In this document: positions 27,444-52,214 of the stretch, piece after piece
How the letters are laid out: every line of letters begins with the position of its first letter
Numbering within the stretch: the stretch's first letter is position 1
Assembly: GCA_022842065.1 (NCBI GenBank)
Contig: JALHQH010000007.1
Location: forward strand, 62,001 to 126,000
Reading direction: 5' to 3'
Origin: Caldilineaceae bacterium
GTDB lineage: Bacteria > Chloroflexota > Anaerolineae > Caldilineales > Caldilineaceae
DNA length: 64,000 nucleotides
The notes under the pieces: generated by a model
What the model was told of the DNA's origin: nothing
Database searches by the model: none
The model's input: the letters and a program-made list of their open reading frames with translations, nothing else
Translations under genes and position numbers: made by a program

Positions 27444-27511
27444 CAGGTGCGTCGCACTGTCCAGAAAGCAGCGGATCGTACGATCGTCGCGTGGACAGTG
27501 CGACGCACCTG
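27444..27511. repeat. 20-bp inverted repeat with GTGCGTCGCACTG core in the serS leader
   Basis: Perfect arms lie at 27444-27463 and 27492-27511, with a second small palindrome in the loop (GATCGTACGATC). The core matches the internal hairpin of the 133-bp element found at 27897 and 46170. It lies between the T-box terminator and the serS start codon, so it is part of the transcribed leader. Confidence 0.8.
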
Positions 27512-27896: not shown

Positions 27897-28029
27897 GGGT
27901 GTATCTCACTGTGGAGGCGAGTTTCCGCTCCCGCTCGTGTGCGTCGCACTGGTCAGATGAGATCTGGTCAACGAAACAACGTTTGACCAGTGCGACGCAC
28001 ACAGGTCGCACCCAAACTAAGCTGCGTCC
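27897..28029. mobile_element. 133-bp palindromic mobile element, copy 1
   Basis: This element has the same length and sequence as the one at 46170-46302 and lies in the opposite orientation. It has imperfect terminal repeats beginning GGG, and an internal hairpin of about 20-bp arms around GTGTGCGTCGCACTGGTCA. It is flanked by CCCCGAAA at 27889-27896 and 28030-28037, a probable 8-bp target duplication. A further GGGTGTATC directly after the right flank may be the stump of another copy. No coding capacity. Confidence 0.8.
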
Positions 28030-44006: not shown

Positions 44007-44924
44007 TTATGCTACCGATTTACCACGCCCACCATAATAACCCAAAAAGAGTTGCTCCAGCGACGGCGGCTCGATCAGCAGATCGGTCACCGGCAGGCAC
44101 GCGAGCAGCGCCAACAAGGGTGATAACTCGGCAATGCCAAACCGCCAAAGCGGCCCCTCGCCGCTGAGATCGGTCACCGTGGGTAATGCGGCCAACTGGG
44201 TGCCGATCTCCTGCGTGCCGGCGGCCAGGGTCAACGTGACGCGGCGCGCCAACTGCGTGCGTAAGGCGGCCATCTGTTCCACGGCAACCAATTGCCCCGC
44301 GCGAATCAGGGCCACACGGTCACAAAGTTCTTCGACTTCGCTGAGCACATGGGAGGAAAAGAAGAGGGTTGCTCCTCTCGCTTTGGCGGCCTGGAGTAGC
44401 CCAAAGAGCGACCGTTTTGCCAGCGGATCGAGCGCCTCGGTCGGCTCGTCCAGCACCAGCAGATCAGGCCGATGTTGTAGTCCTTGCACGAGGTTGACCT
44501 TCTGCCGTGTCCCTCGCGAAAGGCGACCAAGCGGCCGGCGCAAGTCAGCAGGACGTAGTTCCAGCGTCTCCAACAAAACCGCGCGATCCACTGGTGGTTG
44601 ACCTTGTAAGGCGGCCAGATCATCCAGCAGCCGTTCGCCCGTTGCCGCGGGATCCAGCCCGGCCACATCGGGGACAAAGCCCAGCCGTTGGCGCGCCCGT
44701 TTTGCCTGTGCGGGATCGGCCATATCGTAGCCAAGCAGCCGGACCGTGCCTTGGGTCGGGCGCAAGAAACCCATCAGCAGCCGGATCGTGGTGGTTTTGC
44801 CCGCGCCGTTGGGACCAAGAAAACCGAGCACGTCGCCCCTGTTCACGGTTAAGTGCAGGTCATGCACCGCTTGGGCCGACCCGTAACTTTTGCTCACATG
44901 GGCAAGTTCAATCGCAGGGTTCAT
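44007..44924 (-). CDS. ABC transporter ATP-binding protein
   Basis: 305 residues from ATG 44924. Walker A is GPNGAGKT (37-44), the signature is LSRGTRQK, and Walker B is LLVLDEPTEALDPL, followed by the switch histidine in FFSSHVLSEVEELCD. The C-terminal 80 residues are the extra domain seen in ABC-2 ATPases. It energises the permease encoded next. The start overlaps the fdhD stop codon by 4 bp (ATGA). That makes it the tail of the formate dehydrogenase operon by position, though a functional link is not obvious. Confidence 0.93.
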   Translation of the reverse strand: MNPAIELAHVSKSYGSAQAVHDLHLTVNRGDVLGFLGPNGAGKTTTIRLLMGFLRPTQGTVRLLGYDMADPAQAKRARQRLGFVPDVAGLDPAATGERLLDDLAALQGQPPVDRAVLLETLELRPADLRRPLGRLSRGTRQKVNLVQGLQHRPDLLVLDEPTEALDPLAKRSLFGLLQAAKARGATLFFSSHVLSEVEELCDRVALIRAGQLVAVEQMAALRTQLARRVTLTLAAGTQEIGTQLAALPTVTDLSGEGPLWRFGIAELSPLLALLACLPVTDLLIEPPSLEQLFLGYYGGRGKSVA

Positions 44925-45781
44925 GAGGTCGTCAGTGGGCATGGTTCAGGGAGGATAATGCGCTCAACACCGGTGTAAATGTTAAAGCGGTCGCCGCGCA
45001 AAAAGCCGATGAGGGTGATGCCAAAGTGCTCAGCCAATTCAACTGCCAGGCTGCTCGGTGCGGAAACAGCACAGAAGATCGACGCGCCGGCGACACGGCA
45101 CTTTTGGAGCAGTTCATAACTGGCGCGACCACTGACCAGGATCAGCTTATCGTGGAAGGGCAACGCCTGGTTGAGCACGCCCCAGCCTATCAACTTGTCC
45201 AGGGCATTGTGGCGACCCACATCTTCGCGGGCGACAACCAGTTCGCCGGTGGCCGTAAAGAGTGCGGCGGCGTGCAGGCCACCAGTGCTATCAAAAAGTT
45301 TCTGGGCTTGGCGCAGCGTGGCAGGTAAGGTGGTAAGCAGTGCCGGCGTCACTTGGAGATCGGTGGTCAACGGGGGCAGGTTGCGTTGGCTCAGGTCATC
45401 GAGCATGGTTTTGCCGCAGACACCACAGGCGCTTGTGGTGAAAAAATGGCGATCCAGTTGGTGCAGCTCAGGCAATTGCGCGGCAGCCAGGTTGACACGC
45501 AACAGATTGTACTCCTGCAACGCTTGCTGGCCATCGACACAGTAGATCATCTGGGTAATGTCAGCTTTGGCCTGAATCACCCCTTCGTTGTAGAGAAAAC
45601 CGGCGGCCAGTTCGTAGTCATTGCCAGGGGTGCGCATGGTGATCGCCACCGTCTGCTGCTTTGCACCGGCGCGCAACTGGATTTCGAGCGGTTCTTCGGT
45701 GGCGACATAATCACTTTTGCGATGCACCTGGCCATTGTCAACGGTCCAGATGCGTCGTTTAGCTTTGTTGAAGCGCGTCAT
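44921..45781 (-). CDS. fdhD: Formate dehydrogenase accessory sulfurtransferase FdhD
   Basis: 286 residues. FdhD passes sulfur from IscS to the molybdenum or tungsten cofactor of formate dehydrogenase and is needed for its activity. The CxxC motif is C119/C122 in TSACGVCGK. Other family blocks are GNDYELAAGFLYNEGVI, EDVGRHNALDKLIG and SGRASYELLQKC. It lies downstream of fdhA on the same strand, separated by the DUF2442 gene, which matches its role. Confidence 0.97.
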   Translation of the reverse strand: MTRFNKAKRRIWTVDNGQVHRKSDYVATEEPLEIQLRAGAKQQTVAITMRTPGNDYELAAGFLYNEGVIQAKADITQMIYCVDGQQALQEYNLLRVNLAAAQLPELHQLDRHFFTTSACGVCGKTMLDDLSQRNLPPLTTDLQVTPALLTTLPATLRQAQKLFDSTGGLHAAALFTATGELVVAREDVGRHNALDKLIGWGVLNQALPFHDKLILVSGRASYELLQKCRVAGASIFCAVSAPSSLAVELAEHFGITLIGFLRGDRFNIYTGVERIILPEPCPLTTS

Positions 45782-45794
45782 AAGGTTATGCCGC

Positions 45795-46058
45795 TCAAAG
45801 CACAGGCGCGAGGCTTAGCGCGTGGACTACTTCAAAGCCATTGTCCAGCGCTTCCCAGTACACCGCATAGCCACCGGGTTCAATTGACCAGTTTGCGCGT
45901 TGTTCTGGGGTAGCTTTTGCCAGCCAACGCAACCAGGGAATCTGTTCGAAGGGCAGCAAGATCATGCGGCCGTCGGTGAGATGGAGATGCAAAGCATTGC
46001 CCTCAAAATCGACACGCCGTGCACCCACTTGATCAACTGCTACCGCGAAAGTGTTCAT
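45795..46058 (-). CDS. DUF2442 domain-containing protein
   Basis: 87 residues. The family pattern is seen in RVDFEGNALHLHLTDGRMIL, LPFEQIPWLRWLAKATPEQR and NWSIEPGGYAVYWEALDNGF. DUF2442 proteins are small and usually encoded next to DUF4160 proteins; the pair is suspected to be a toxin-antitoxin-like or regulatory module, without proof. Here the DUF4160 partner survives only as a fragment that overlaps this start by 26 bp. Confidence 0.88.
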   Translation of the reverse strand: MNTFAVAVDQVGARRVDFEGNALHLHLTDGRMILLPFEQIPWLRWLAKATPEQRANWSIEPGGYAVYWEALDNGFEVVHALSLAPVL

Positions 46059-46169: not shown

Positions 46170-46302
46170 GGGAGCAGCTTAGTTTGGGGGCAAGCTGTGT
46201 GCGTCGCACTGGTCGTACACGATCGGGTCGACGAAACAACGCTTGACCAGTGCGACGCACACGAGTGGGAACAGAAACTCGCCCCCAAAGTGAGATACAC
46301 CC
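46170..46302. mobile_element. 133-bp palindromic mobile element, copy 2
   Basis: Opposite orientation to copy 1 at 27897. It is flanked by TAGCCAGC at 46162-46169 and 46303-46310. The terminal repeats are imperfect (GGGxGxAxCTxAxTTTGGGG). The centre is a hairpin with GTGTGCGTCGCACTGGTC arms. Without the element the fdhA end would read GCTGGCTAA; after insertion the stop became TAG, partly made by the element. Confidence 0.82.
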
Positions 46303-48386
46303 TAGCCAGCTAACGGCTCGACGCGCACCGGGCAGACCTTTAACTCCGCGGTCTGGGTCACCGGGTCATAGCCAGAGCCGGTGAGCAGGTTGACCGGCAC
46401 ATCGTTAAAGGCAAAACTGGTAAAGACGGTGCCGCGTGGCGAGCGATTGGTCGCTTTCACTTTGACCGTGACCGCGCCGCGGCGACTGCTCAACCGGGCC
46501 CAGCCACCATCCGCCAGACCCCAGGCGGCGACATTGTCGGGATGTACTTCCAGCGTTTCTTCCGGTACAAAGTAGTCAATCCCCTGGGAACGGCCGGTCT
46601 GGGTGCGGGTGTGATAGGTCTGTAAGCGCCGGCCAGTCGTCAACCAGACGGGATAGTCATCATCAATCATTTCGGCGGGATCACGATAGGTAATCACTTT
46701 GAAGAGACCGCGGCCGTTGCTAAATTCATTCTCGTGCAGGCGCGGCGTACCAGGGTGACCCTTGTAGGGCACCGGCCATTGGTAGTGGCCATCAGCCACC
46801 AGATCCCAATCGACACCGGCATAGTTGGGAGCAATGGTGCACAGCTCATTAAAGACATCCCTTGCCGAATCATATTCAAAACCAGGGATGCCCATGCGGT
46901 TGGCCAGCGCGCTAATGATCCACCAGTCGGGTTTGGCTTGCCCCTGGGGGGTCACCGCCCGGCGCACGCGCTGGATACGCCGCTCCGAATTGGTAAAGGT
47001 GCCATCGGTCTCGCCCCAGGCGGTGGCAGGCAAGACGACATGGGCCAATTCGGCAGTCTCAGTCAGGAAAATATCGATCACCACCAAGTGTTCTAAACTA
47101 CGTAAGGCATGTTCACCGTGGGCGCGGTTGGGATCGGAAACCACCGTGTTTTCGCCATCGATCAACATGGCAAAGATACTTTCACCGGCGAGATCGAGGG
47201 CAGTTACCTTGGTAATGCCCTGTTCCCAATCCATCGTGCGGCCGTAAAGCCGGCTGAAGTTGGCCTGCACAGCCGGGTCAGCCAAGGATTGATAGCCGGG
47301 GTAGGCATCGGGTGCGGCACCCCCATCACCGGCCCCTTGGATATTATTTTGCCCGCGCATGGGGTTGATGCCACCGCCCTCAATGCCCAGGTTGCCGGTC
47401 ATCAGCGCCAGGTTACAAAGACTTTGCACATTATCGACGCCGCAGATATGTTCGGTGATGCCAAGGGTATAAAAGATCGCGGCTTTGTTGGCGGAACCAT
47501 ACCAGACCGCGGCCGTTTCAATATCTTTGGCCGGGACACCAGTGATGGTCGCTGCCCATTGCGGGGTAAACTGTTTGACATGATCCAAGAATTCAGCGCT
47601 GCCGGCCGTCCGGGTGGCCATAAATGCCTGGTCAACCAGCCCTTCGCGCGCGATCACATGGGCCATGCCTAGCAGCAGCGCCACATCCGAGCCGACGCGT
47701 AGGGGCAAGTAGAGATGGGCCAGTTCGGCCAGTTTGATCCGCCGCGGGTCGGCTACGATCAGCTTGGCCCCATGCGCGATGGCTTTCTTCAAAAAGGTAG
47801 CCGCCACCGGATGACACTCGGTCATGTTGGTGCCGATACAGAAGGCTAACTCGGTCTTTGCCATATCACTGTATGGATTTGACATCCCCGCACGCCCAAT
47901 CGTTGTCGCCAGACCGGCGAGTGTGGGGGCGTGTCAAGCACGGCTACAGTTGTCGATATAGTGGGTGCCAAAGCCGGCGCGGATAAACTTTTGCATCAAG
48001 TAATCGGCTTCGGTCGGCGTGCGCCCGGAGGCAATACCGTAAATGGCGTGGCGACCATGTTTTTCAGCGACCTGTTGGAAACCACTGGCCGCTACTGCCA
48101 GCGCCTCGTCCCAAGTGGTTTCATGCAATTTGCCATCCCCGCGCCTGACCAGTGGCTGTTTGAGCCGATCCGGATGCTGGACATAGTCATAAGCAAATTG
48201 CCCTTTAACACAGAGCGCGCCGTGGTTGGACGGCCCATCCATCGCCGGTTGGATGCCGATAATGCGGTCGTCCTTGGACAAAATATCCAGCGCACAGCCG
48301 ACGCCACAATAGCCGCAGACCGAACGAGTTTTTTTGATGCCGGCCTGGTGGAGAGGGATTTGTTTGAGATCGGTTAGGGTTGTCAT
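46302..48386 (-). CDS. fdhA: Selenocysteine-containing formate dehydrogenase catalytic subunit
   Basis: 694 residues when the in-frame UGA at 47936-47934 is read as selenocysteine (Sec151, in NCSRA-U-HAPTLAGLA). This is the position of the active-site Cys/Sec of formate dehydrogenases, followed by H152. N-terminal C24, C27, C31 and C59 bind a 4Fe-4S cluster, and GALCVKG holds K61. The rest carries the bis-MGD cofactor (TGNLGIEGGGINPMRGQNN, LPATAWGETDGTFTNSERR, TGRRLQTYHTRTQTGRS). It oxidises formate to CO2. Electrons pass through the ferredoxin-like subunit to the NuoEF fusion and NAD. GGAGACCCT precedes the ATG. Automated callers would split it at the UGA into two genes of 150 and 527 codons. 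Confidence 0.95.
47891..47936 (-). promoter_or_regulatory. UGA selenocysteine codon and bacterial SECIS hairpin in fdhA
   Basis: On the minus strand UGA (47936-47934) is followed at once by a 7-bp lower stem CACGCCC/GGGCGTG (47933-47927 with 47897-47891). Above it is a 5-bp upper stem TCGCC/GGCGA closing a GGTCT loop (47915-47911). The GGUCU loop sequence and the 18-nt distance from UGA are as in Escherichia coli fdhF. SelB is expected to bind it. Confidence 0.93.
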
Positions 48387-48401
48387 AGGGTCTCCAAAAT
48401 A

Positions 48402-48502
48402 ATTAATTGAAAATGGAAAATAATTAATGTTTAATGCGTGGGTAACGAAATTGGATGCGCAGCGGCGACATTAATCATTAACCGTTTTCAATTTTCAATT
48501 AA
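48402..48502. repeat. AATT-rich inverted oligomer cluster between fdhA and its ferredoxin-like subunit
   Basis: Left units TTAATTGAAAATGG and TAATTAATG (48402-48437) face complementary units CATTAATCATTAACC and TTTTCAATTTTCAATTAA (48469-48502). The right end includes the stop codon of the upstream gene. A leaky terminator here could lower fdhA expression. Confidence 0.65.
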
Positions 48503-49170
48503 CCATTGCGTAGTGCTTTCTTGTCACCGAGGGCACCGGTGGGGCAGGTTTGTACACATTGGCCACAAAAGGTACAGGCCGATTCCTTGAGCAGGCCATC
48601 AAATTCAACCGTGATCTGGGTATGGAAGCCGCGGTTTTTAATGCTGATGGCGTAGTCCCCTTCCTGCTCGGCGCAGACGCGCACACAGCGATAGCAGGAG
48701 ATGCAGAGATCATAGTCGCGCAACAAGAAAGGGTTGGTGTCGTCGGGTCGACTCGTGCCAGAGTGGGCACCTTGAAAGCGACCGGTGCGCGCGCCATAGC
48801 GATCAACCAGCGTGGTCAACTCCTGTGACGCATAGCTGCGCAGTGGGCTAACATCAAGCAGTGGATTTTCTGATGCCACCAGTTCCAACAACGTCTTACG
48901 ATAAAAGTCAACCTGTTCAGTAGAGGTATTGACCTCCATGCCGATCACTGCCGGGGTTGTACATGCGGCGACTGGGTTGCGCTGGCCGCGTACCGCCACC
49001 ACACAAAGGCGACAGGCACCAAAAGGTTTGAGGCGGGGATCGTAGCAGAGCGTAGGAATAAAGGTTCCCTGCCGCGCGGCGACATCATAGATCGTCTCGC
49101 CCAGCATAAAGGTGACGGTCTCCCCGTCCAGGGTCATGATCAGGTCGGTCGGTGGTGGTTCAGCAGTCAT
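48499..49170 (-). CDS. Formate dehydrogenase ferredoxin-like subunit (detached N-terminus of FdhA)
   Basis: 223 residues. An N-terminal 2Fe-2S ferredoxin domain has C42, C53, C56 and C70 (LCYDPRLKPFGACRLC). Two 4Fe-4S motifs follow: DLCISCYRCVRVC and CTFCGQCVQTCP. In NAD-linked formate dehydrogenases this region is fused to the N-terminus of the alpha subunit; here it is a separate gene. The His-Cys motif that usually binds an extra 4Fe-4S cluster between the domains is absent (ELVASENPLLDVSPL). It should pass electrons from FdhA to the NuoEF-like subunit. Confidence 0.9.
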   Translation of the reverse strand: MTAEPPPTDLIMTLDGETVTFMLGETIYDVAARQGTFIPTLCYDPRLKPFGACRLCVVAVRGQRNPVAACTTPAVIGMEVNTSTEQVDFYRKTLLELVASENPLLDVSPLRSYASQELTTLVDRYGARTGRFQGAHSGTSRPDDTNPFLLRDYDLCISCYRCVRVCAEQEGDYAISIKNRGFHTQITVEFDGLLKESACTFCGQCVQTCPTGALGDKKALRNG

Positions 49171-49253: not shown

Positions 49254-50528
49254 TTAGGTAACCTTCAGGTTTTCCTGGCTATAGTGTAAATACAATTTTT
49301 CCGTCACTGCACGCTTGGTACGCATCACCGCCTCATAAATATCTTCAAACGAAGTATAGAGCGGCGTGATGCCAAAGCGAATGTTGTCCGGGGCGCGGAA
49401 GTCGGGCAGAACGCCCAACTCGTTGATCAGCGCCTGGTCGATGCGCCAGGCATCGGGATGCCCCAGAGAAATGTGCGAACCGCGCACGGCAGCCTCGCGT
49501 GGGGTGTTCAGCGTAAAACCAAGCCCGGCCAGTTCTTGCGCCCAGAGGTCGATCATGTATGCCGTCTGCTGGCGCGACTTGGCGCGCACGCGGTCGATGC
49601 CGGCTGCCAGCAGCAGGTCAATCCCCGGCTCAATTGCCAGGGTGGAAAGGATCGGTGGAGTACCGGTAAGAAAGTGAGCCAGCCCTGCCCCCCGTTCATA
49701 GTCCAGCCCAAAGTTAAACATATTCGCTTGCCCCATCCAGCCCTGGATCGGGTTGGTGAGCAATGACTGCAGATCACTACGCACATAGAGAAAGGCCGGC
49801 GCGCCAGGGCCACCATTGAGATATTTGTAGGTGCAACCAATTGCCAGATCAGTGTGAGCACGGCCCAGGTTGACGGCCACCGACCCAGCGGCGTGGCTCA
49901 GATCCCAGAGGACGAGCGCGCCTTTGCAGTGGGCTAGCTCGGTCATCGCGGCCATGTCATAGGTGTAGGCGCTTTTGAAAACGGTGTGGCTCAGCGTCAG
50001 CAGCGCCGTTTTTTCGTCAATTGCCTGGGCGAGCGCTTCGACCGGGCCGTGAATCCCATCTGGTGAGGGGACGACCTCAATCTGATATTCCGGCCCCAGC
50101 AATTGGCAGATACCCTGTAACGCGTAGAGATCAGAGGGGAAGTTGAGATCATCAGTGACAATTTTGTGCCGTCCCGGTTGGGCGCGCAGCGCGGCAACCG
50201 CGAGTTTAAAGAGATTTACCGTCGTTGAATCCGCCACTGTGACTTCACCGGGCGCGGCCCCCAGCAGTTGCCCAATCTTGTCGCCAATCCGCGTCGGGGC
50301 GTCGATCCAACCTTCGTTCCAACTGCGGATGAGGCGGTTACCCCACTGCCGTTCGATGCTATCTTTTAACAAGGCGACCGTGGCATGAGCAAGCCGCCCC
50401 AGCGAGTTGCCGTCGAGATAGATCAGGTCGGGATCGTCAACGACAAAACGCTGCCGAAAGTGGGCCAGTTCATCCCCAGCATCCAGGGCGCGGGCATCAG
50501 TGAGCGTTGCGAGTGTGCGTTCAGCCAC
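49254..50528 (-). CDS. kynU: Kynureninase
   Basis: 424 residues, beginning at GTG 50528. It is a PLP enzyme of fold type I that cleaves kynurenine to anthranilate and alanine. LYLDGNSLGRL-type motif (IYLDGNSLGRL), SHTVFKSAYTYDM, WDLSHAAGSVAVNL and CTYKYLNGGPGAPAF with the PLP lysine are all present. The C-terminal FRAPDNIRFGITPLYTS is diagnostic. The AGGAG of its ribosome site lies in the end of the upstream nuoEF-like gene, 3 bp away, so translation is coupled. Placing it inside a formate dehydrogenase operon fits with formate being released one step earlier in tryptophan catabolism. Confidence 0.96.
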   Translation of the reverse strand: MAERTLATLTDARALDAGDELAHFRQRFVVDDPDLIYLDGNSLGRLAHATVALLKDSIERQWGNRLIRSWNEGWIDAPTRIGDKIGQLLGAAPGEVTVADSTTVNLFKLAVAALRAQPGRHKIVTDDLNFPSDLYALQGICQLLGPEYQIEVVPSPDGIHGPVEALAQAIDEKTALLTLSHTVFKSAYTYDMAAMTELAHCKGALVLWDLSHAAGSVAVNLGRAHTDLAIGCTYKYLNGGPGAPAFLYVRSDLQSLLTNPIQGWMGQANMFNFGLDYERGAGLAHFLTGTPPILSTLAIEPGIDLLLAAGIDRVRAKSRQQTAYMIDLWAQELAGLGFTLNTPREAAVRGSHISLGHPDAWRIDQALINELGVLPDFRAPDNIRFGITPLYTSFEDIYEAVMRTKRAVTEKLYLHYSQENLKVT

Positions 50529-50531
50529 CGT

Positions 50532-52214
50532 TTACTCCTGTGAATTTGCAAAAAGTTGATCGGCCACTTGGGCCGGGAAAAAACGGATCAGACTCTCGAC
50601 CACCAACGGTGCCGCTACCCCCAACCCGCAAGCACTCACCGCCTTCATCGTTTGGCTAATGTCATCGACCTCGCGCTGCCACAGGATCGGATCAGCAGGG
50701 CCATTGTCGCTTAGCCGTTCCGTGAGCCGTTGCGTGCCGATGCGGCAGGGGAAACACTTACCGCACGACTCATGGGCAAAGAAGCTCATCGCGTTGTGCG
50801 CGGCCGCGACCATGTTACGGCTGTCATCAAAGACGATCATCCCCGCCGCGCCCAACATCGAGCCGTAGCTGCGAATGCTCGGCTCATCAATCGTCGCCTG
50901 TTCCAGCGCGTCGCCGGCTAGGAAACCACCAGAGAGACCAGCCATCGTGACGGCTTGGATCGTGCGCCCCGCCACTGGCCCGCCTGCCCAGTCGTAGAGC
51001 AATGTTTTGAGCGGCAAGCCAAAGGGCACTTCATAGTTACCGGGCCGCTGCACGTCACCGGAGAGGCTGATCACTTTGGTGCCGGCATGATCGCCCAATC
51101 CCAGTCCATGATACCACGTGGGGTCACGGCGCAAAATTTGGGGGACGGAGGCCAGCGTCTCCACATTGTTGACTGCCGTGGGCAGATTTTCAAAGCCGTG
51201 GGTCACCGGATAGGGCGGGCGGTTGCGCGGGAAGGGGTGTTTGCCTTCCAGGCTGTTGAGCAATGAACCTTCCTCGCCGCAGATATAAGCCCCTGCGCCG
51301 CGGCGAATGTAGAGATCAAAACTCAGGTCGCTACCCAGGATATTTGGCCCGAGTAAGTTCGCCGCATACGCAGCATCAAGGGCGGCTTGCAGTGTGGCCA
51401 GGGTGTGGGGATATTCGTAACGTAGATAGATAAAGCCACGCGTCGCCCCGGTGGCATAAGCGGCAATCGTCATCCCTTCGATCAGGGCGAAGGGGTCGTG
51501 ATCAAGCACCGCCCGATCCTTGAAACAGCCCGGTTCGCCTTCATCGGCGTTACAGACAATCGTTTTGGGTGTATCTGTTGCTTCGGCAACTGCCTTCCAC
51601 TTGAGACCAGTCGGGAAACCAGCCCCACCACGGCCAGCCAGTTTACTCTGGCGGATATGTTCAACCACATCGGCGGGTTGCATTTGAGTTAGGGCACGCT
51701 GCAATCCAATATAGCCTGCGGTAGCACGATAGCCAACAAGGGTCGCGCGTGCAGGCTGACGAATGGCGTGGAAGACACACTCCTCGATCCCACCAGGATT
51801 GGGCGGTGGCAAGGGCGTTGGGGGTTCGATTAACGTCCCATCGGGTTGACCCACCAGATAGTGATGACCACGAAGGACCGGAATCGGCTCATCACAGCGA
51901 CCAGCACAGGGCATGGGGGTCGCCCCTTGATCTGCCAGTGTGGCCAGCAATTCCGACCCGCCGCGTAACGAACAGACTGGACCAGTGCAAACGCGTGGCG
52001 CGTGCAACCCGCCCGTTTCTCGCGCAAAGTGATGATAAAAGGTGACCGTGCCGTAGAGATCAGCAATGGGGATGCGCAACGTCTGGGCAATCAGCCGCAG
52101 TGCCGGTTCGGCAAGATAGCCATCACGGTCGTGAAAGGCATGGAGCAGTGGCAAGAGCGGTGCCGGTTGATCCTGCCAGCGGGCAAGCACTTCTTGGTCG
52201 GTTGGTCGGTTCAT
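50532..52214 (-). CDS. NAD-dependent formate dehydrogenase NuoE-NuoF fusion subunit
   Basis: 560 residues. Residues 1-130 are a NuoE/FdsG domain with the 2Fe-2S cysteines C76, C81, C103 and C107 (VCTGPVC, CAGRC). Residues about 160-550 are NuoF/FdsB: GRGGAGFPTGLKW for FMN, CNADEGEPGCFKDR and GAGAYICGEEGSLLNSLEG for NADH. The 4Fe-4S motif is ESCGKCFPCRIGT, plus a cysteine in SACGLG. It passes electrons from the iron-sulfur chain to NAD. The fusion of two normally separate subunits is unusual but keeps all cofactors. First gene of the operon with kynU, the ferredoxin-like gene, fdhA and fdhD. Confidence 0.93.
   Translation of the reverse strand: MNRPTDQEVLARWQDQPAPLLPLLHAFHDRDGYLAEPALRLIAQTLRIPIADLYGTVTFYHHFARETGGLHAPRVCTGPVCSLRGGSELLATLADQGATPMPCAGRCDEPIPVLRGHHYLVGQPDGTLIEPPTPLPPPNPGGIEECVFHAIRQPARATLVGYRATAGYIGLQRALTQMQPADVVEHIRQSKLAGRGGAGFPTGLKWKAVAEATDTPKTIVCNADEGEPGCFKDRAVLDHDPFALIEGMTIAAYATGATRGFIYLRYEYPHTLATLQAALDAAYAANLLGPNILGSDLSFDLYIRRGAGAYICGEEGSLLNSLEGKHPFPRNRPPYPVTHGFENLPTAVNNVETLASVPQILRRDPTWYHGLGLGDHAGTKVISLSGDVQRPGNYEVPFGLPLKTLLYDWAGGPVAGRTIQAVTMAGLSGGFLAGDALEQATIDEPSIRSYGSMLGAAGMIVFDDSRNMVAAAHNAMSFFAHESCGKCFPCRIGTQRLTERLSDNGPADPILWQREVDDISQTMKAVSACGLGVAAPLVVESLIRFFPAQVADQLFANSQE

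Follow-up and report, generated by a model that had tools for sequence, protein, structure and literature searches.

Results

A formate dehydrogenase reading frame divided by a single TGA codon

On a contig of a Caldilineaceae bacterium (JALHQH010000007.1), an open reading frame for a formate dehydrogenase is divided by a TGA codon, raising the question whether this codon ends translation or is decoded as selenocysteine (Sec). The window, i.e. the whole stretch of DNA analyzed here, is 64,000 nt long, and all positions are window coordinates. A preliminary description of this DNA had joined two adjacent minus-strand frames (46302-47933 and 47937-48386) into one gene, and the coordinates bear this out exactly. 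The only internal stop in the frame 48386-46302 is the TGA at 47936-47934. When it is taken as Sec, translation gives a 694-aa protein in which Sec is residue 151. The two features are as follows.

46302-48386, minus strand: fdhA, formate dehydrogenase alpha subunit, a molybdopterin oxidoreductase with one [4Fe-4S] domain, 694 aa (translation, TIGR01591, Pfam)
47934-47936, minus strand: in-frame UGA, predicted to encode selenocysteine, residue 151, corresponding to residue 140 of E. coli FdhF (translation, relatives, alignment)

The joined FdhA scores 733.5 bits against the curated family profile TIGR01591 (cut-off 666.25) over residues 23-689 and contains three Pfam domains (PF04879, PF00384, and PF01568), all of them molybdopterin oxidoreductase domains. 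Alignment with E. coli FdhF, which the preliminary description had proposed as a check, places the UGA codon opposite Sec140. In this alignment, Cys24, Cys27, Cys31, Cys59, Lys61, Sec/Cys151, His152, Arg344, and Gln346 are invariant (8/8 sequences). We take the four Cys to be the cluster cysteines, and Lys61, Sec/Cys151-His152, Arg344, and Gln346 to be catalytic residues. The residues directly after the UGA are HAPTLAGLA, as previously read. Further on, the motif GRAGM at residues 164-168, where 45/50 sequences have GRGAM, was considered as a possible sequence error, but this was rejected because homolog P0005 has GRAGM too.

An in-frame ATG is found at 47885, after 16 intervening codons, and the UGA could in principle terminate a first protein while the downstream part restarts at this ATG as a second one. 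Database records lend this some support. The five entries that were opened start 11-17 residues after the UGA position, four of them at this ATG (17 codons on) and one six residues earlier. Two separate proteins would, however, cut the active site, with loss of residue 151 and of residues 152-167, which include His152, Ala157, Leu159, and Gly164 (invariant in 8/8), and would leave the conserved hairpin described below without an explanation. We therefore consider this arrangement very unlikely.

The TGA codon is kept in close relatives

We scanned 84,980 species genomes, which yielded 148 confirmed relatives, and took the best 80 loci. Codon 151 could be read in 78/80 loci (L044 and L046 have no alignment across it, and the codon of L030 was read from its own sequence) and is TGA in 48 and Cys (TGC/TGT) in 30. 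TGA is present in all 47 readable relatives with 67-79% identity, and in a Desulfovibrio locus at 44%, whereas all 30 Cys relatives show 45% identity or less. Because TGA is kept at the same codon in these 47 relatives and in the one at 44%, the UGA is not an error.

The same data bear on the possibility that we are looking at a pseudogene or at a sequencing or assembly error, in which case the UGA would be a true or false nonsense codon in a broken gene. One stop dividing an otherwise intact frame is what such a scenario predicts. It is nevertheless very improbable, since the 48 loci that share this TGA carry titles of several phyla and come from many assemblies. Moreover, comparison with seven relatives suggests purifying selection on either side of the UGA (dN 0.13-0.27), with dS near or at saturation (roughly 1.5 or higher, or so saturated that no value could be computed). 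Finally, we looked at the order to which G019 belongs (G019 is the genome that carries L034, titled Caldilineaceae). There, the gene was found in 34/46 genomes at E 1e-200 or better, two of the matches being partial, and all 34 gene-bearing genomes have exactly one TGA each.

More broadly, among the first 100 matches listed in a 400-genome sample of Chloroflexota, counted by eye, 29 contain exactly one in-frame TGA anywhere, one contains a TAA, and 70 are stop-free. A formate dehydrogenase with an in-frame TGA is thus not rare in Chloroflexota. The nearest relative of the window gene is in L001 (79-80% identity). A quick tree was built from the window and 58/80 loci, omitting most of the distant gammaproteobacterial loci. 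It places the window FdhA with five Chloroflexota sequences (SH-aLRT 99), with long outgroup branches flagged. Relatives with 67-73% identity are found in loci titled Poribacteria, Planctomycetota, Gemmatimonadetes, Latescibacterota, Verrucomicrobia, and Acidobacteriota, a cross-phylum spread to which bin contamination or transfer could contribute. Searching viral contigs with the joined FdhA confirmed no relative. A blastn search of plasmids with the operon returned 116 records, none of which has 80% of the query at a single site; those listed, 20 in number, cover 4-5% each.

A hairpin with a conserved, covarying upper stem follows the UGA

The preliminary description had placed a two-part hairpin with a GGUCU loop directly after the UGA, at the same 18-nt distance as in E. 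coli fdhF. When folded, the minus strand downstream of the UGA indeed forms a 7-bp stem (CACGCCC/GGGCGUG) and a 5-bp stem (UCGCC/GGCGA) around GGUCU. The spacing also agrees, as GGTCT starts at nt 22, counted from the T of TGA, in fdhF of E. coli K-12 as well as here. The elements are as follows.

47906-47920, minus strand: apical SECIS hairpin, 5-bp stem with the GGUCU loop at 47915-47911 (pairing 50/50, covariation; SECIS_3 below cut-off)
47891-47933, minus strand: span of the lower 7-bp stem, arms 47933-47927 and 47897-47891, partly conserved (fold, pair counts)

The fold energy is ordinary (z -0.98, with 34/200 shuffles as stable or better), and folding energy was dropped as evidence for the hairpin. 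A 2-kb search with the Rfam model SECIS_3 gives a match of 42.3 bits (E 9.4e-8). This is less than the curated cut-off of 63, and the match does not appear in a gathering-threshold Rfam scan of the whole window. It is conservation, and not energy or Rfam score, that raises the hairpin above chance. We compared 50 TGA sequences (the window, 48 loci, and a second copy in L052). Each of the five upper-stem pairs forms in 50/50, and the loop is GGTCT in 49/50 and GGTTT in 1/50. In contrast, pairs 5-45 and 8-42 of the lower stem form in only 17/50 and 14/50, respectively, the remaining five forming in 46-50 of 50. The upper part of the proposed structure is therefore kept throughout, whereas two of the seven lower pairs are not, and the lower stem was ruled out as a conserved element at these two pairs.

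Two of the upper-stem pairs covary. Pair 18-30 is C-G in 35 sequences, T-A in 11, and G-C in four, whereas pair 21-27 is C-G in 48 and T-A in two; both pairs occupy third-codon positions on both sides. When synonymous codons were permuted between sequences, ignoring kinship, the observed pairing was reached in 0/5000 and 4/5000 trials. The rarer pair types fall in separate parts of the tree. T-A at pair 18-30 occurs in ten rows of a group of Poribacteria, Planctomycetota, Gemmatimonadota and kin, plus L038, and G-C occurs in L007, L016, and both L052 copies; L020, placed within the T-A group, carries C-G. Among the 30 Cys relatives, pairs 18-30 and 21-27 form in three and 15, respectively.

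Relatives encode the selenocysteine machinery

No tRNA was found within the 64 kb of the window. Matches over cut-off for the Sec machinery were counted in 20 genomes picked among those behind the close loci. All 20 encode selA, selB, and selD, and 18/20 have a tRNA-Sec over cut-off. The two without one (G003 and G007) are possibly incomplete bins. ARAGORN called tRNA-SeC(tca) in 8/8 loci retrieved from the first tRNA-Sec search, and in 4/6 loci retrieved from a further one, with the sub-cut-off matches in G445 and G356 being tRNA-Ser. It also called tRNA-SeC(tca) for the weakest accepted match (G001, 49.5 bits). A tRNA-Sec match near 47 bits is weak evidence alone, because not only the E. coli and M. 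jannaschii controls but also Caulobacter, Thermus, and Thermotoga passed the cut-off. For selB, only E. coli and M. jannaschii did among the controls.

In the order of G019, selB is present in 42/46 genomes, including all 34 that bear the fdhA gene. The four selB-less genomes (G434, G445, G446, and G449) are all without fdhA, and eight genomes have selB and no fdhA gene. Fisher's exact test, calculated by hand and ignoring kinship and bin completeness, gives p = 495/163185 = 0.003. As a separate observation, selD has one internal TGA of its own in 19/20 relative genomes, the one without being G001, source of the nearest locus (L001).

Reassignment of UGA genome-wide, or its decoding as another residue, is scarcely credible, for even though UGA terminators seem rare in the window (2/30 hand-picked long ORFs end in TGA), the adjoining fdhD is among the ORFs that end in TGA, codon 151 is Cys in all 30 non-TGA relatives read, the hairpin covaries, and relatives carry the Sec machinery with tRNA-Sec(UCA). 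Taken together, the family score, the active-site alignment, the kept TGA, the covarying hairpin, and the Sec machinery of relatives argue strongly, with a probability that we put at about 0.96, for a selenocysteine-containing formate dehydrogenase in which UGA is decoded as Sec151, as originally proposed. Known families are our basis for inferring that Sec is really inserted in this organism, as well as for the metal, the acceptor of the electrons, and which way the reaction runs.

The gene neighborhood points to a soluble NAD(P)-linked enzyme

Five genes on the same strand adjoin fdhA. A NuoE-NuoF fusion, a kynureninase, and a HoxU-like protein are encoded upstream, and a DUF2442 protein and FdhD are encoded downstream.

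50532-52214, minus strand: diaphorase, NuoE-NuoF fusion, 560 aa (family profiles, Pfam)
49254-50528, minus strand: kynureninase, between the diaphorase and Fe-S subunit genes (TIGR01814, 259 bits, cut-off 246.4)
48499-49170, minus strand: iron-sulfur subunit resembling HoxU and the NuoG N terminus, 223 aa (family profiles, Pfam, structure search)
45795-46058, minus strand: DUF2442 protein, 87 aa, between fdhA and fdhD (Pfam)
44921-45781, minus strand: fdhD, formate dehydrogenase accessory sulfurtransferase (NF001943, 301.3 bits, cut-off 269; TIGR00129, 178.5 bits, cut-off 140.9)

In the 49 close loci (L001-L047, L051, and L080), NuoEF and HoxU are both encoded upstream of FdhA and on its strand in 40/49, and HoxU accompanies FdhA in 45/49, with several contigs incomplete. 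In a structure search, the joined FdhA matches residues 252-932 of chain 6tg9_A, which we take to be FdsA of Rhodobacter FdsABG, and the HoxU-like protein matches residues 26-246. Because the two proteins match successive parts of one chain, the arrangement amounts to an FdsA divided over two genes, together with a fused diaphorase. The enzyme is most likely a soluble NAD(P)-linked formate dehydrogenase, an assignment in which acceptor and direction are inferred.

Three known systems are useful comparisons. Like FdsA, a soluble NAD+-dependent formate dehydrogenase, the present enzyme has both modules and an adjoining NuoE/NuoF-type diaphorase. FdsA is one chain, whereas here each module has a gene of its own (48499-49170 for the Fe-S module, 46302-48386 for the catalytic one) and NuoE is fused to NuoF. 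The enzyme is thus FdsABG-like in its working but is not filed under FdsA, because its Fe-S and catalytic modules are on two genes. E. coli FdhF (1aa6, 1fdo, and 2iv2) shares Sec at the aligned site, the active-site residues, and the GGUCU loop at an identical distance. It is part of formate hydrogenlyase and differs in its sequence (37% identity) and in the NuoEF- and HoxU-like gene neighbors found here. The best-scoring solved chain is the FdhF subunit of HDCR (7qv7_S), which matches across the catalytic fold with 580 bits. HDCR is coupled to a hydrogenase, whereas a Pfam scan of 44 window proteins listed no hydrogenase catalytic domain.

Several other features of the locus were observed. 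The HoxU-like gene and fdhA are separated by A+T-rich DNA (48387-48498), directly before the fdhA start, with a 71% match to its own reverse complement. Just downstream of fdhA, 46190-46300 is a short repeat with self-complementary arms, copies of which at other sites of the window (27899-28004, 27937-28002, and 27447-27508) are 73-88% alike; it looks like a small mobile or REP-like element. In the nearest relative, a 4.6-kb stretch (L001:5354-10000; GC 0.51) with an 882-aa frame on the opposite strand parts the hoxU-like gene from fdhA. A c-di-GMP-I-GGC riboswitch match antisense to fdhA (46401-46487, plus strand), with 20.4 bits against a cut-off of 59, is probably due to chance, and an abiF RNA match (RF03085, 62265-62309, minus strand) is marginal (37.2 bits, cut-off 37).

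A kynureninase gene lies within the operon

The kynureninase gene, which starts 3 bp after the diaphorase gene and ends 83 bp before the HoxU-like gene, is the one oddity of this operon. None of the 80 related loci has a kynureninase in that slot, and none is found there in L106-L108. The sole kynureninase match among the 80 loci (L027, 22% identity) is on the other strand. The same slot is occupied by a frame resembling an aldo-keto reductase, named by eye, in L106 and by a BKACE enzyme in L027.

The operon might serve to oxidize formate that the breakdown of tryptophan sets free from N-formylkynurenine; the Sec formate dehydrogenase would convert it to CO2 and feed NADH, and the slot may recruit whichever pathway yields formate or reductant. 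Such a tryptophan-to-formate link is chemically sensible. We consider it improbable and speculative, because the Pfam scan of 44 window proteins listed neither tryptophan dioxygenase nor formamidase and because no kynureninase turned up in the operons of relatives. The only paper found that joins kynureninase, formate dehydrogenase, and operon concerns quinolones.

Discussion

The locus is best read as a single gene for a Sec-containing formate dehydrogenase, and by analogy with known systems its expression and working can be outlined. SelB carrying Sec-tRNA-Sec would bind the GGUCU-capped hairpin just 3' of the UGA, and decoding of the UGA as Sec151 would yield the 694-residue catalytic subunit. 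Sec would ligate Mo or W in the molybdopterin site, with FdhD supplying the sulfido ligand. Electrons from formate would then pass via the [4Fe-4S] cluster to the HoxU-like Fe-S subunit, the NuoEF-like diaphorase, and finally NAD(P)+.

Selenoproteins had been described as sparsely reported in this phylum, which is true in one respect, as two wide-ranging surveys (PMC13188914 and PMC5029168) contain no word beginning with "chloroflex" in their main texts. It does not hold in another, as the trait is not rare and Sec formate dehydrogenases have already been reported in Chloroflexi. In the parts of these papers available, they are described in Anaerolineales single cells (PMC4959059), in work on deep-sea Chloroflexi (PMC5736913), and in RBG-2 (PMC3971608). 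According to the same parts, these enzymes share with the present one the phylum and an active-site Sec, and some are NAD-linked FdhAB. They come from subsurface or sediment lineages with Wood-Ljungdahl genes. The available parts of PMC5649159 report SelA and SelB in most sponge-symbiont bins, and Caldilineaceae bins 5 and 34 listed there have accession prefixes in common with L031 and L045. An excerpt of PMC5029168 names formate dehydrogenase, with SelD, as most widespread. The accessible portions of PMC7117926, PMC12013277, PMC5330540, and PMC5424206 contain nothing on a Sec formate dehydrogenase in Chloroflexi.

There is nothing new in the mechanism, and we make no claim that the gene family is undescribed. 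This is ordinary biology, well supported. The main gain is a correct annotation. A gene split by a stop is easily missed by automatic annotation. The loci, titled as several phyla, also provide a clean SECIS set with third-codon covariation. Finally, because the best 120 of 7989 database homologs are all stored as fragments of 514-546 aa, covering 73-78% of the joined FdhA query (full-length records may exist beyond these 120), formate metabolism and selenium use are probably under-recorded in this bacterial order.
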